Assembly (NCBI RefSeq): GCF_020165495.1
Contig: NZ_JAIUIE010000004.1
Coordinates: forward strand, 62,001-126,000
Source: Mesorhizobium sp. BR1-1-16
Lineage (GTDB): Bacteria > Pseudomonadota > Alphaproteobacteria > Rhizobiales > Kaistiaceae
Direction of reading: 5' to 3'
Length of the DNA: 64,000 bases
How positions within the stretch are numbered: position 1 is the stretch's first letter; every line of letters starts with the position of its first letter. Made by a program: the position numbers and the translations under genes. Below are positions 43,329-49,117 of the stretch, piece by piece. Below the pieces are notes generated by a model, which saw nothing but the letters and a program-made list of their open reading frames with translations, ran no database searches and had not been told where the DNA came from.

Positions 43329-45521
43329 GTGTCCATGGCGCCAGAACTGATACACAAGATCCTCATCGTCGACGACAGTTCGACCAACCGGCGCATCTAT
43401 TCGAGCCTGGCGAAGCAGCTCGACTCCACGCTGGAGATCCGCGCTTTCGGGAATCCGCGCGAGGCCCTTGATTGGCTGGAAGAGAATACGGTCGATCTGA
43501 TCATCACCGACTACAAGATGCCCGGCATTTCCGGTGCCGAGCTGACTGCAGCCGTTCGCAGCAACGCCCATAATCGTGACGCCCCGATCATCGTCATCAC
43601 GGCCTACAATGATCATCAGTTTCGGGTGACGGCGCTTGAGGCCGGGGCGACGGACTTCCTGCTGAGCCCGGTGGACCATGTCGAATTCCTGGCGCGGGCC
43701 AAGAACCTGTTGAAACTCAGGATGCAGCAGCTCCTGCTGGCAAAGCGCGCCGACATCCTCGAGATCACCCTGAACGCAAAGGAGCAGCTGCTGCGGGAGA
43801 GCCGCGAGGCCCTTGCCCAGGTCATCGACACCGTGCCGGCCATGATCAGCGCAACAGATCGCGACGGCCGATGCGTCTTCGTCAACGCGCATCAGGCTGC
43901 GTTCCTCGGCAAGGCACCGGGCGATCTGGTCGGTCAGCCCATCGAGGCTCTCATGGGCGAGGAGCGGGCTCTCATCAGCCGCCGGCTCGACCAGTTGATT
44001 CTGAAGACAGGCCGGCCGATCTCGTCACGCCAGGAGGACGTCCTGGCGCCCAACGGCGAGAACCGAATCTATCTGACGAGCAAGGCCCCGCTCTACGATG
44101 GCAACGGCGAGATCGCGAGCGTTCTCTCCACATCGATCGACATCACCGATCAACGCTATGCAGAGCGGCGCCTGCTCCATCTGGCGAACCATGATCCCCT
44201 CACCGGTCTGCCCAACCGGCCGATGCTTCGTGACCATCTGCGGCGCGAACTGGCGCGGGGACGCAGGGGTGACCAGAATTTTGCGCTGCATTTCATCGAT
44301 CTCGACCGGTTCAAGGCGGTCAACGATGCGCATGGCCATCATTGGGGCGACGAGTTGCTGCAGCGCGTCGCGGCCGCCCTTTCCGGCCTCGTTGGCGAAC
44401 GTCATACGGTCGCGCGCCTCGGCGGCGACGAATTCGCCGTGCTCCAGTCCGATATCGACAGTGCGGAAGACGCAGGCCGGATGGCGCAGTCGATCCTCGA
44501 CTTGCTGAACAGCGGCGACAGCAGCCCCTTTTCCCTGAATATCGGCGCCAGCATCGGCGTCACACTGGCGCCTCTCGACGGTACAGACCCGGATGAGCTG
44601 CTGAAGAACTCCGATCAGGCCATGTATCTCGCTAAGTCGCTCGGCGGCAGTACATGGCGCCTCTTCGCTGCCGATATGCGTCCGCGCGCGAGCGAGACAG
44701 CGTATTTCGAGACCGAACTGCGGGGCGCGCTCTCGCGCCAGGAATTCGTGCTGCATTATCAGCCGCAGATCGATCTCCACAGCAACAGGCTGGTCGGCGT
44801 GGAGGCCTTGTTGCGATGGCAGCATCCGCAGCGCGGCCTGTTGGCTCCCGGTTCATTCCTCAGTCTTGCTGAAGAGACCGGCCTCATCCTTTCGATCAAT
44901 GAATGGGTTTTGAACGAAGCTTGCCGCCAGGGGGCTGCATGGGACAGATCAGGCCTTGGCGACCTGCGCGTCGCCGTCAACATGTCGCCCATCCAGTTCA
45001 AACGTCAGGGTGTAGAAACCCTCGTCAAGGAAGCCCTTCTCAAGAGCGGCATGCGGGCCACATCGCTCGAACTGGAGCTGACGGAAGGGATTCTGCTGGG
45101 GAACGACGAACAGATCGTCAAGCAGATGAGCATTCTCCGCTCGCTCGGGGTGACCCTGTCGGTGGATGATTTCGGTACAGGCTATTCATCGCTCGGCTAT
45201 CTTCGCAGCTTCCCGCTGAATCGGCTCAAGATCGATCGATCCTTCGTGCAGGATCTCGGCAGCGATCCCAGCGCTTTGGCGATTGTCCGCACCATCATCG
45301 ACCTCAGTCATATCCTGCATCTGCAGGTCCTAGCCGAAGGTGTCGAGACAGCGCCCCAGTTGCAGCTTCTGCGCGATGAAGGGTGCGACGAGGTTCAAGG
45401 CTATTATTTCAGCCGGCCCGTTCCGGCTGACGAACTGGCCGATTGGGCCGTACAGTTTGGCAGGAGGAACTCCGGACGGGGACAGGACCCGATGGAGAGC
45501 GAGCATGAGCGCATCGGCTAG
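43329..45521 (+). CDS. REC-PAS-GGDEF-EAL response regulator, probable output of the DSF circuit
   Basis: About 730 residues; numbering here is from the ATG at 43335. Receiver domain: phospho-acceptor D59 in LIITDYKMPG, acidic pocket VDDSS; the usual K-P is S-P (DFLLSPVD). A short coiled coil and a PAS domain (about 165-290, VIDTVPAMISATDRDGRCVF) follow. The GGDEF motif is at 363-367, intact, with no RxxD inhibitory site before it (GERH). EAL is at 490-492, with NMSPIQF, ELTEG, DDFGTGYSSL and AEGVET all present, so phosphodiesterase activity is plausible and cyclase activity possible. GTG at 43329 has AAGAGG 8 nt upstream; ATG 43335 is the alternative. It overlaps the RpfC-like kinase by 17 nt and takes the place RpfG has in Xanthomonas. 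Confidence 0.92.
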   Translation: MSMAPELIHKILIVDDSSTNRRIYSSLAKQLDSTLEIRAFGNPREALDWLEENTVDLIITDYKMPGISGAELTAAVRSNAHNRDAPIIVITAYNDHQFRVTALEAGATDFLLSPVDHVEFLARAKNLLKLRMQQLLLAKRADILEITLNAKEQLLRESREALAQVIDTVPAMISATDRDGRCVFVNAHQAAFLGKAPGDLVGQPIEALMGEERALISRRLDQLILKTGRPISSRQEDVLAPNGENRIYLTSKAPLYDGNGEIASVLSTSIDITDQRYAERRLLHLANHDPLTGLPNRPMLRDHLRRELARGRRGDQNFALHFIDLDRFKAVNDAHGHHWGDELLQRVAAALSGLVGERHTVARLGGDEFAVLQSDIDSAEDAGRMAQSILDLLNSGDSSPFSLNIGASIGVTLAPLDGTDPDELLKNSDQAMYLAKSLGGSTWRLFAADMRPRASETAYFETELRGALSRQEFVLHYQPQIDLHSNRLVGVEALLRWQHPQRGLLAPGSFLSLAEETGLILSINEWVLNEACRQGAAWDRSGLGDLRVAVNMSPIQFKRQGVETLVKEALLKSGMRATSLELELTEGILLGNDEQIVKQMSILRSLGVTLSVDDFGTGYSSLGYLRSFPLNRLKIDRSFVQDLGSDPSALAIVRTIIDLSHILHLQVLAEGVETAPQLQLLRDEGCDEVQGYYFSRPVPADELADWAVQFGRRNSGRGQDPMESEHERIG

Positions 45522-48009
45522 AGTGCTCCAGCTGTTGGGCAAGCCGCTTCGATGGGCGGCCGCAAGACTCAAGGATCGGCCCGACAGCGAACATGAGATG
45601 AGCTTCAACCGGCTCGCTTTTGCGGCGGTCATCGTTGTCGTGCTGCTCGTCACGCGCCACACGGATGATCCTCCCTATGCATTGGGGGTGATGGCGCTCT
45701 ACATCCCCCTTGCGATCGGCGTCCTCTGCCATATCCTGCTCTTTCCCGGAGTGTCACGGACCCGGCGCATCTTCGCCTTGCTGATGGACTGCGGCTTTCT
45801 TTCCTGGCAGTTGCATCTGGGAGCCGAAGTCGCTTCGCTCTTCTTTCCGATCTACCTCTGGATCATTTTCGGCAACGGATTCCGGTTCGGCTTGGCCTCG
45901 CTCGCAATCGCGATCCCGGTGGCGACGATCTCGTTCGGGATCGTCGTGCTGACGACCCCGTTCTGGTCCGAACAATGGCACCTCTCGGCCGGGTTGGTCG
46001 GCGGGCTTGTCATCCTGCCGGCCTATGCCGGCACGCTGATCCGCAAGCTCTCCCAGGCAACGGAGGCGGCCGAGGAGGCCAGCCAGGCCAAGAGCCTCTT
46101 CCTGGCAAGCGTCAGCCACGAATTGCGAACGCCGCTGACCGCGATCGTCGGCATGACGGGATTGTTGCGCGGCACCACGCTCGCAGCCGACCAGAGGGAC
46201 ATGGTCGAGACGGTAGACGTCGCGAGCCGTTCCCTGCAATCACTGATCAACAGTCTGCTCGACCTCTCGCGCATCGAGGCCGGACGCATGCCGGTCTCTA
46301 GCGAGGCTGTCGACCTCGTAGGGCTGCTTGTCGATGCGCGCCGACTGGTGGAAAGCCAGATCCGGGATAGGGACCTGAGTTTCGACATCCATGTCACGGC
46401 GCGTACGCCGCTGCATTTGCTCGGCAGCCGGCAACATCTGCACGAGATCCTGGTCAACCTTGTCGGCAATGCCGTGAAATTCACCCGCGACGGCGGCGTG
46501 ACAATCGCGGTGGACGGCGAGCGACGGGACGACGGCAGCGTCAAACTGATGATGGAAATCTCCGACACCGGCATCGGCATCGCGCCAAAGGATCAGGCGC
46601 GGATCTTCGAGGATTTCACCCAGGCCAATCCCGGCATCATGAACCGGTTCGGTGGTACCGGCCTCGGCCTGGCCATCGCGCGACGGCTGGTGGTCCTGCT
46701 CGGCGGCTCGATCTCGGTCGAGAGCGTGCCTGGCGAAGGCAGCACCTTCCGTTTCGACATTCTCGCCACGGCGCTGCCGGACGAAGACATAGCTGTCGAT
46801 CAGCCCTGGCGTGAACGTGGGGTGGTTCTCGTCTGCCGTGATACCGCACCGCTATTGGGCGTGCTGGCCACCCTCGATGAGCTTGGCGTCCTGCCGATGA
46901 TCGCCGACCCCCGCATGGGGCCGGCGCGCATGTTCCCGCCGCAGGCCACCAACGCCGTTCGGCTCATCTTCGACGATCAAAGCGTCAATCTCCCGCTCTC
47001 ACCTCCGAGCGCGTTCGGTCAGGCTCCGAAGGCCGTTCTGGTTCGGCCGCAGGCCACGTCGACCCTGCCAGATATGGCAATCCGCCGGCGCTACACCACG
47101 CTGCTTTCCGAGAACCCGACGGCGGCGGAGATGCGTCACGCGCTAATCCTGGCCTGCCGGCTTGTCGCCCCGGTGCAATCGGTTGCGCAGGCACTTCCGC
47201 CAGCGGCAATTCCGATCCGCCGGCCGCGCCGGGTTCTGCTGGCGGATGATAACCGCATCAACCAGCGGGTCTTCTCCCGCATCATCGAGGCTGCCGGCCA
47301 TTCCGTGCGAATTGCGGAGTCCGGCGACCAGGCACTCGACCTTCTTGAGGAACGGGCCGATCAATTCGACATCGTGCTGATGGATTTCAACATGCCCGAC
47401 ACCGACGGGCTGGAGGCCACCAAGCTCTACCGCGTGACCGCCACGGGCGAGCGGCGGCTTCCCATCGTGGGCTTGACGGCCGACGCGACGGCTCTGAATG
47501 ACAGCCGCTGGCGCGACGCCGGCATGGATGATTGTCTCATCAAGCCGGTGGAGCCCGCCGCATTGCTGGCCGTGATCGACGGCATGGCCCTTGACCGGCG
47601 GGAAAGCGGCAAGACCATCGCCATGCGGCCGATGGTCGTTCGCCCGCATGCCTCACCAAGCCTCGACGAGGTCGTGATCGAGAGGCTGCAAACACTCGGA
47701 AGCCCGGAATTCGTGATCGAATTGATGGAGGATTTTCTGGCAGACGCCGAAGTCATCCTGGAAAGGCTGATCAAGAGCGCAGCCGATGGCGATCTGGAGA
47801 CCTTTCGCAGCGATGCCCATGCGCTGCTGAGCAGTTCTGCCAATATCGGCGCGGTCGGTATCGGCTCGATCTGTTCGAGTTGGCGAGACCTGCGCGGCGA
47901 CGCATTGAGAGCGAGCGCCTCGGACTTCACGCGTCAGGCCCGTGCCGAACTCAAGCGGACTCAACGGGCCATGCGCGCCTATTCGGCGCGCGAAGCCGGC
48001 CTCGGATGA
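45505..48009 (+). CDS. rpfC: RpfC-type hybrid sensor histidine kinase (DSF sensor candidate)
   Basis: An 834-residue hybrid kinase. The membrane input region (about 35-180, five or six spans) carries SRTRRIFALLMD, PIYLWIIFGNGFRFG and TPFWSEQWHLSAG, which match the DSF-sensing input of Xanthomonas RpfC as I know it. HisKA: H205 in VSHELRTPL. ATPase: NLVGNAVKFT, DTGIGIAPKD and FGGTGLGLAI. A degenerate receiver-like stretch (about 430-540) precedes the true receiver (D627 in IVLMDFNMPD). The HPt domain has H772 in DAHALLSSSANIGA, with LS instead of the usual KG after the His. It starts inside the preceding gene (GGAGAGCGAGC before the ATG), so the two are coupled. Convergent with rpfF. Confidence 0.9.
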   Translation: MSASARVLQLLGKPLRWAAARLKDRPDSEHEMSFNRLAFAAVIVVVLLVTRHTDDPPYALGVMALYIPLAIGVLCHILLFPGVSRTRRIFALLMDCGFLSWQLHLGAEVASLFFPIYLWIIFGNGFRFGLASLAIAIPVATISFGIVVLTTPFWSEQWHLSAGLVGGLVILPAYAGTLIRKLSQATEAAEEASQAKSLFLASVSHELRTPLTAIVGMTGLLRGTTLAADQRDMVETVDVASRSLQSLINSLLDLSRIEAGRMPVSSEAVDLVGLLVDARRLVESQIRDRDLSFDIHVTARTPLHLLGSRQHLHEILVNLVGNAVKFTRDGGVTIAVDGERRDDGSVKLMMEISDTGIGIAPKDQARIFEDFTQANPGIMNRFGGTGLGLAIARRLVVLLGGSISVESVPGEGSTFRFDILATALPDEDIAVDQPWRERGVVLVCRDTAPLLGVLATLDELGVLPMIADPRMGPARMFPPQATNAVRLIFDDQSVNLPLSPPSAFGQAPKAVLVRPQATSTLPDMAIRRRYTTLLSENPTAAEMRHALILACRLVAPVQSVAQALPPAAIPIRRPRRVLLADDNRINQRVFSRIIEAAGHSVRIAESGDQALDLLEERADQFDIVLMDFNMPDTDGLEATKLYRVTATGERRLPIVGLTADATALNDSRWRDAGMDDCLIKPVEPAALLAVIDGMALDRRESGKTIAMRPMVVRPHASPSLDEVVIERLQTLGSPEFVIELMEDFLADAEVILERLIKSAADGDLETFRSDAHALLSSSANIGAVGIGSICSSWRDLRGDALRASASDFTRQARAELKRTQRAMRAYSAREAGLG

Positions 48010-48019
48010 ACCGTCGACG

Positions 48020-48053
48020 CGGCTGGATGCGGCGGGAGCGCATCCAGCCGTTT
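48020..48053 (+). terminator. Terminator between rpfC and convergent rpfF
   Basis: A perfect 12-bp stem (CGGCTGGATGCG, 48020-48031, with 48039-48050), 7-nt loop, then TTT. It lies 10 nt after the kinase stop and 5 nt before the rpfF stop. The T-run is short, so it may work with other signals. Confidence 0.65.
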
Positions 48054-48058
48054 AGACG

Positions 48059-49027
48059 TCATTCAGCCGCCACGAGAGCGGGCGTTTGAGACTGAAGGTT
48101 CGCGAGCCGGCGGTTCTGCGCCGAGCAAAGCCGGTCCATCTTCCGGAGATCAGCCTCCGTCAGATTCAATGCCGCTTCAGCCCAGATGTCGACGACGTCG
48201 ATCAGTTCGTCGAGCGTCACCGGATTGACGCGCCGCCGCGCCCGATACATGGCTTGGTGGGCGTTGTGCTTGCGGTTGTGGCGCGCGATGTAGTCAACCA
48301 CAGCCGCTTGCCCCTCTCCGTCTTCCGCCAGGACATCGACGACACCCATCTCATAGAGTTCTTCGGCCGTGTGAATCCGGCCCGAGAGGATGAGCGCCTC
48401 CGCCTTGTCGCGGCTCATGCGCCGTGAAAGGAAGCTGTATGCGCCCATGCCCGGGAACATATTGAAGAGAATTTCGGGCAGACCCATCTTCGCGCTGCGC
48501 TCGGCAACGATCAGGTCGAAAGACAGGGCGTGCTCGAATCCGCCCCCGAGAGCATCGCCCTGAACCAATGCCATGGTCACGATCGGCGCGTCGAAAGCCA
48601 CTGCATTGCGGTGGATGGCCTCTACGGCGACGTGACCGTAGTGCCGCATCGCCTCCAGGTCCCGGCTGCGGATCCGCTCGGCGAAATGACCGAGGTCACC
48701 GCCGAGATTGTAGATCCCGGGGACGGCGGAAGCCATGACAAACCACGAAAAGGGCGCGGCGGCCTGGTTCGGCAGATTGCCGAAGGCACGGGTGATGGCG
48801 CCCTGCATCCTGCTGATATCGTTCATCAATTCATGGGTGTAGGAGGGCTTGTCCACCGGATCCATGAAGCACCAGCAGGTCGCTTCACGCGTATCGATGC
48901 TGAGTTGAAGGTTGTCATAGCCGAGATCGTTGATCGCCCGCACAGCCTGGGCCGTCGCCAGGTGCTGTTGCTCAGCTCTGATTTCGTTCAGTACAATTGG
49001 CTCGTTCTTCGCCAGGATTGCAGACAT
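48059..49027 (-). CDS. rpfF: RpfF-type DSF synthase (enoyl-CoA hydratase/crotonase family)
   Basis: A 322-residue crotonase-fold protein. RpfF hallmarks in order are IYNLGGDLGHF, ALVQGDALGGGFEHALS (E165), MGLPEILFNMFPGMGAYSF (E185), and a C-terminal VDIWAEAALNLTEADLRKMDRL with AQNRR. The two glutamates are 20 residues apart, as E141/E161 of Xanthomonas RpfF, which act both as acyl-ACP dehydratase and thioesterase to make cis-2-unsaturated fatty acids. I use the ATG at 49027 (GGAAAGAGCAG before it); ATG 49117 would add 30 residues without a ribosome site. Convergent with the RpfC-type kinase. Chain length and branching of the product cannot be read from sequence. Confidence 0.9.
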   Translation of the reverse strand: MSAILAKNEPIVLNEIRAEQQHLATAQAVRAINDLGYDNLQLSIDTREATCWCFMDPVDKPSYTHELMNDISRMQGAITRAFGNLPNQAAAPFSWFVMASAVPGIYNLGGDLGHFAERIRSRDLEAMRHYGHVAVEAIHRNAVAFDAPIVTMALVQGDALGGGFEHALSFDLIVAERSAKMGLPEILFNMFPGMGAYSFLSRRMSRDKAEALILSGRIHTAEELYEMGVVDVLAEDGEGQAAVVDYIARHNRKHNAHQAMYRARRRVNPVTLDELIDVVDIWAEAALNLTEADLRKMDRLCSAQNRRLANLQSQTPALVAAE

Positions 49028-49117
49028 CTGCTCTTTCCATCTTCTGATTGAGGGAACCGCGTTCACACTGTGGAGGCTTGCCGGCATTACGGCCAGCAGA
49101 TTGGCCTCAAGAGACAT

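Follow-up and report, generated by a model that had tools for sequence, protein, structure and literature searches.

The stretch of DNA analysed here, hereafter the window, comprises 64,000 nucleotides of Mesorhizobium sp. BR1-1-16 (contig NZ_JAIUIE010000004.1, positions 62,001 to 126,000 of the forward strand; Kaistiaceae in the GTDB lineage; its genus is treated here as Kaistia, Hyphomicrobiales) and contains three adjacent genes resembling the rpf genes for signalling by diffusible signal factor (DSF). The first, at 43329–45521 on the forward strand, stands in the place of RpfG and encodes a response regulator of 730 aa with a GTG start (an alternative ATG lies at 43335). A Pfam domain search, used for all three open reading frames (ORFs), found Response_reg, PAS_4, GGDEF, and EAL in it, and it was compared across 71 non-redundant loci. 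The second gene (45505–48009, forward strand), whose start overlaps the first by 17 nt, encodes a hybrid kinase of 834 aa, with five transmembrane (TM) segments predicted from hydropathy and the domains HisKA, HATPase_c, Response_reg, and Hpt; domains, hydropathy, alignment, and tree all mark it as RpfC-type. The third (48059–49027, reverse strand) is a crotonase (ECH_1) that fold and tree place among the RpfF-type DSF synthases. Its longest ORF starts at 49117 (352 aa), and Met31 was chosen as the start, giving 322 aa, because the other Kaistia proteins, read from their first start codon, begin there. This arrangement is as the first-pass annotation, made from the letters alone, had described it: a REC-PAS-GGDEF-EAL protein, an overlapping RpfC-type kinase, and a convergent crotonase.

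The trio was found in the same order in 9 of the 9 Kaistia loci, the window included, while the contig of a tenth ends inside the first gene. Across the 71 loci with a GGDEF-EAL regulator, RpfC and RpfF were convergent in 67 and divergent in 4. Between the convergent genes of the window lies a 12-bp perfect inverted repeat (48020–48050), likely a two-way terminator judging from its predicted fold: the region 47990–48080 gave a z of −3.45, and none of 200 shuffled sequences was as stable. The repeat was not among the matches of a scan for T-tract terminators, and a sigma-70 and terminator scan around the three genes gave nothing usable.

Several sets of loci were used for comparison. Eighty loci were named as the best 80 of 510 confirmed RpfF matches, and because of this choice they are skewed to the window's branch. 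A class sample covered 385 genomes (RpfF threshold E 1e-40), and a phylum sample (E 1e-30) gave matches in 62 of 398 genomes, with neighbourhoods inspected for 40 of the 62. The GGDEF-EAL regulators were made non-redundant by RpfF (the 71 loci above), and the RpfC-type set held 115 non-redundant proteins. The control loci, RpfG-type and RpfR-type, were named by architecture. One and the same script retrieved both layouts, REC-HD-GYP with RpfC and RpfF (nine loci) and RpfR-type PAS-GGDEF-EAL with RpfF (11 loci), which served as a check on the calling of loci.

The identity of the synthase was supported by two comparisons. Its fold, compared by VIA-align, was nearer to solved RpfF-type synthases than to hydratases, and in the phylogeny, a check that had been set beforehand, it grouped with the RpfFs (support 99) and not with ordinary crotonases; 8 of the 9 crotonases fell outside this group, and the ninth, on a very long branch, landed inside it. 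The glutamates singled out earlier, E165/E185, kept that numbering in the 322-aa protein and were invariant in all 28 aligned RpfFs. Ordinary crotonases and hydratases carry the same pair, so it is not diagnostic alone and was not used as proof of an RpfF. The best NCBIfam model was the generic PRK08788 (384 bits).

In the kinase, alignment located the phospho-accepting residues H205 of HisKA (46117–46119), D627 of the REC domain (47383–47385), and H772 of HPt (47818–47820), all on the forward strand. They were invariant in an alignment of seven RpfCs (the window, three HD-GYP loci, two GGDEF-EAL loci, and one kinase-output locus). The protein has the five-TM input, the HisKA-HATPase-REC-HPt order, and the three phospho-residues of an RpfC. 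A kinase-domain tree separated 55 RpfCs on one side from 26 other kinases on the other (support 83, not starred), and among Kaistia the RpfCs were 73–79% identical. The input region of Xanthomonas RpfC also has five TM segments, and Arg15, Asp17, Ser18, Glu19, and Gln22 are reported to contribute to its sensing of DSF, with Ser18Thr being tolerated (PMC5391125). Just before TM1, the window kinase carries RPDSEHEM (45577–45600, forward strand), which aligned to residues 15–22 of the Xanthomonas protein and matched four of the five sensor residues (Arg15, Asp17, Ser18, and Glu19), the fifth position, residue 32 of the window kinase, being Met and not Gln; RPDSE also aligned with the RpfCs of HD-GYP loci. 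The pattern RxD[ST]E was present in 80 of the 115 RpfC-type proteins: 43 of 71 from GGDEF-EAL loci, 17 of 17 from REC-PAS-(PAS)-HK loci, 7 of 9 from HD-GYP loci, 8 of 11 for which no adjacent regulator was found, 4 of 6 from REC-PAS loci without GGDEF-EAL, and the one other (1/1). Among other kinase ORFs it was seen in 5 of 36, all five being truncated RpfC copies of Inquilinus-type loci, and otherwise in 0 of 31. In those loci (L064:13809-15801, L066:13737-15454, and L067:4142-5053), one or two such copies, made of the input region and a partial HisKA and recalling rpfH of Xanthomonas, lie between RpfC and the regulator.

The fifth sensor residue varied with the locus. Among the 80 RpfCs bearing RxD[ST]E, residue 22 was Met in 38, Leu in 4, and Gln in 1 of the GGDEF-EAL loci, Gln in 16 and Met in 1 of the kinase-output loci, Gln in 7 of 7 HD-GYP loci, and Met in 4 of 4 REC-PAS loci. 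The clearest exceptions were L231, a GGDEF-EAL locus with Gln whose RpfF lies in the kinase-output branch, and L213, a kinase-output locus with Met whose RpfF lies in the GGDEF-EAL branch. In the sequences compared, residue 22 tracks the branch of the synthase and not the output, which suggests that the RpfF branches perhaps use different signal acids.

The regulator retains the phospho-acceptor Asp of its receiver (in TDYKMP, 43509–43511, forward strand by alignment, as are the positions that follow), and this residue, the acidic pair member, and the Thr were conserved in 71 of 71 GGDEF-EAL regulators. At the canonical switch lysine it has Ser (in LSPVDH, 43665–43667). The lysine was absent from 96 of 96 alphaproteobacterial partners, being replaced by Ser (66), Thr (4), or Ala (1) in GGDEF-EAL regulators, by Ser (16) or Thr (1) in those with kinase output, and by Ser in the six REC-PAS and two HisKA_2 proteins; two lysine-bearing REC-first ORFs, L212 (an RpfC fragment at a contig end) and L081 (173 aa, resembling the REC of RpfC), were excluded from the 96. 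At the same position, seven of eight RpfGs had Lys and the remaining one Arg; in RpfC, all 8 REC domains examined had Lys. Mean identity to the window was 0.58 (GGDEF-EAL), 0.51 (kinase), 0.53 (REC-PAS), and 0.48 (HisKA_2) for REC, and 0.53, 0.35, 0.43, and 0.19 for PAS, respectively; because of the last value, the PAS of the two HisKA_2 regulators is possibly a different one. Both the GGDEF (44421–44435) and EAL (44802–44810) motifs are intact in the window, with the other EAL catalytic residues that were checked present. In a tree that took in 33 of the 71 regulators, these formed one clade (support 95), next to GGDEF-EAL proteins adjoining other alphaproteobacterial RpfFs (support 94); 10 of the 11 RpfR-type proteins formed their own clade (support 99), and the eleventh (L203) was a long branch.

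As proposed in the first-pass annotation, RpfG is absent as the partner. The regulator has GGDEF-EAL instead of HD-GYP, an HD-GYP profile built from the nine control ORFs had no match in the ORFs of the window locus, of the loci of 14 relatives, or of the 80 named loci, and no HD_5 was found in the window's genome at E 0.001, where nine EAL domains and two PilZ matches were counted. The layout of the window was found in 59 of the 80 named loci. Six others had RpfF, RpfC, and a REC-PAS protein without GGDEF-EAL (one, L089, with GAF and PAS_3 instead), four had kinase output, one had RpfC with another REC protein (L118), one had RpfC at a contig end (L099), and nine had no adjacent RpfC, L057 and L071 of these being cut by contig ends. 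In the class sample, RpfF was present in 24 of the 385 genomes. The commonest partner of RpfC there was a REC-PAS-histidine kinase (15 of 24; L213, L214, L216-L227, and L229), in which a receiver would pass the signal to a further kinase. The other loci had GGDEF-EAL in two (one being the window) and a REC-PAS-HisKA_2 protein without adjacent RpfC in one; three were cut by a contig end, and in three no partner was found. From these tallies (59/80 versus 2/24), GGDEF-EAL predominates in the window's branch, whereas it is not the usual output in the class. The RpfF tree, a quick tree with 50 of its 155 inner branches open, required at least ten changes among six output labels. The earlier claim of an RpfF/RpfC pair with a REC-PAS-GGDEF-EAL protein in place of RpfG in an alphaproteobacterium held on sequence, fold, synteny, and phylogeny, but understated the case: in the loci compared, the layout is widespread, and the output domain of the partner is itself exchangeable. 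Its further elements, a DSF signal and a PAS-gated output acting on c-di-GMP, are putative.

Other arrangements were also seen around RpfF. In the Roseomonas-type loci L074 (13413-16227) and L076 (13247-15731), the regulator stops after PAS and the next gene encodes a PAS-HWE kinase; such output-less REC-PAS proteins, of about 254–286 aa, occur in L074, L076, L078, and L082. On two plasmids, pMRAD01 of Methylobacterium radiotolerans (L252:6851-10183) and one of Sphingomonas parapaucimobilis (L254:6989-9853), RpfF is convergent with a GGDEF-EAL protein, and no kinase is annotated alongside. A locus of a metagenome-assembled genome (L055:7090-15616) has, around one RpfF, the REC-PAS-GGDEF-EAL/RpfC set plus an extra GGDEF-EAL protein with no hydrophobic segments ahead of GGDEF. 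In a small-genome family outside the class (L198-L200, L241, L243, L244, L246, L250, and L251), RpfF and RpfC were present and no adjacent response regulator was found. The records 'Mycobacterium sp. KBS0706' (L066) and 'Terriglobia bacterium' (L070) bear an alphaproteobacterial-type RpfF and are likely mislabelled or contaminated.

The window probably encodes an entire DSF-type quorum-sensing circuit whose output forms a class of its own. As expected from its family, RpfF would make a cis-2-unsaturated fatty acid from acyl-ACP (acyl carrier protein), and RpfC, a five-TM protein, would detect this signal through its N-terminal juxtamembrane sensor. Phosphate would then pass from H205 to D627, to H772, and finally to the phospho-acceptor Asp of the regulator, and the turnover of cyclic di-GMP (c-di-GMP) would shift, most likely in favour of hydrolysis when the signal is abundant, given that the EAL site is better conserved than the GGDEF site. 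A receiver without the lysine, joined to a PAS, would leave room for a second input. The circuit resembles that of Xanthomonas in the fold group of RpfF, the domain layout of RpfC, the shared sensor residues, and the convergent gene order, but differs in the domains of the regulator, the Ser in its REC, and the Met at sensor residue 22. With the RpfF-RpfR system for the signal BDSF in Burkholderia and Cronobacter it shares an RpfF beside a PAS-GGDEF-EAL protein; unlike RpfR, however, the window protein has Response_reg instead of an FI domain N-terminal of the PAS, its GGDEF-EAL belongs to a separate clade, and an RpfC kinase is present. Loci in which an alphaproteobacterial RpfF adjoins a membrane GGDEF-EAL protein (L045, L046, L128, L238, and L240) provide the nearest clade of the tree, but lack an adjacent RpfC and a REC and have five hydrophobic segments before GGDEF.

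Some observations weigh against this reading. Besides the Met in place of Gln22, 28 of the 71 GGDEF-EAL loci lack RxD[ST]E, seven of them fitting no looser pattern either, and without its lysine the REC of the regulator may no longer couple phosphorylation to output. Among PDB chains, Xanthomonas RpfC came out closest to the REC of the kinase by a marginal difference, with 63.8 bits, while the next REC-only chain reached 63.2. The crotonase scored 208 bits with NF053515, the NCBIfam equivalog for RpfF, whose cut-off is 550; this cut-off was passed in only 3 of the 398 phylum genomes, all of one family with HD-GYP loci, and synthases beside RpfR-type genes scored 176–188 in 10 of 11 cases, below the window, the eleventh scoring 216. 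PDB entry 5wyb, which we take to be Pseudomonas DspI, a proposed cis-2-decenoate synthase, scored among the hydratases (54 bits), so the fold group need not reveal the product. Finally, four genomes of the same genus are without the system.

Among the alternatives, the one that survives best, though unlikely, is that the regulator is phosphorylated but acts as a diguanylate cyclase or c-di-GMP receptor, in which case the signal would increase c-di-GMP or just have it read out; 64 of the 71 regulators have an exact GGDEF motif, and it is intact in the window, where no RxxD I-site was seen ahead of it, whereas EAL is exact in 70 and every further EAL catalytic residue that was checked is present in 71 of 71, GGDEF departing in seven. 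Somewhat less likely still is that the regulator's PAS acts as the main sensor, as the PAS of RpfR does, with RpfC as an accessory. The conservation of REC and PAS across GGDEF-EAL and HisKA outputs, the persistence of the output-less protein in some Roseomonas-type loci, the loss of the switch lysine in all 96 partners, and the binding of DSF by the PAS_4 of RpfS, noted in a passage of a review (PMC4504480), are in its favour. Yet the GGDEF-EAL clade is distinct from RpfR, no counterpart of RpfR Arg187/Asn202 was evident by eye in the window PAS, and RpfC retains most of its known sensor residues. That the crotonase is metabolic and the trio an ordinary two-component system beside it, as the generic model and the RpfFs without adjacent RpfC might indicate, is very improbable given the fold and tree, the conservation of the RpfF/RpfC pair over several alphaproteobacterial families and in the HD-GYP control loci, and a sensor residue that follows the RpfF branch.

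The DSF-type circuit also appears to have moved as a unit. Of 14 Kaistia genomes, the same ten have both RpfC and RpfF, and a search of 14 further genomes of the family gave no RpfF of comparable score. At E 1e-10, no flanking DNA was common to the window and the eight other Kaistia loci within the stretches compared. In the RpfF tree the window lies beside Ancylobacter, then Acidocella and Roseomonas, with the same-order loci L042-L044 elsewhere. Tree placement, unshared flanks, and patchy occurrence together suggest that the whole trio was horizontally transferred. The identity matrices of its parts correlate at 0.81–0.91 over the 71 loci (shuffled maximum, 0.23), part of which would be expected from shared descent alone.

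Because the lysine-less receiver bears other outputs in relatives, the alphaproteobacterial circuits can be viewed as a shared core of signal and sensor into which an output is plugged; on this receiver lineage the output is GGDEF-EAL, a HisKA kinase, a HisKA_2 kinase, or none beside a separate HWE kinase. We give about even chances to the broader proposal of a third core DSF class in Alphaproteobacteria, made of RpfF, RpfC, and the lysine-less receiver lineage (mostly REC-PAS) with swapped outputs, in which Gln to Met at residue 22 marks a different acid. In the parts consulted, reviews from 2015 and 2026 present DSF systems as coming in two arrangements, RpfC-RpfG and RpfR, alongside accessory sensors (PMC4504480, PMC13220807). 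A survey of acidophiles credits Leptospirillum and several Acidithiobacillus with complete DSF systems, none being noted there for Acidiphilium (PMC9040811). The main text of a survey of alphaproteobacterial c-di-GMP has 0 occurrences of 'Rpf' and 'quorum' (PMC9756655). Among the matches listed from open-licence PMC papers, no description of an alphaproteobacterial RpfF-RpfC with GGDEF-EAL or kinase output was recognised by title or start of abstract, which is no proof of absence in print.

If the third class is real, a single fatty-acid signal would have been wired to c-di-GMP turnover in some loci and to a second kinase cascade in others, and Gln to Met at residue 22 would point to another signal acid in the RpfF branch to which most of the GGDEF-EAL loci belong. 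With this third layout, which was seen in Hyphomicrobiales, Acetobacteraceae, and sphingomonads, the reach of DSF signalling would grow to include many Alphaproteobacteria from the environment and from plants. Such loci would moreover offer a set of outputs exchanged by nature behind a single receptor, would allow the association of one sensor residue with the synthase branch to be tested, and would make it possible to test how a receiver without the switch lysine relays a signal.
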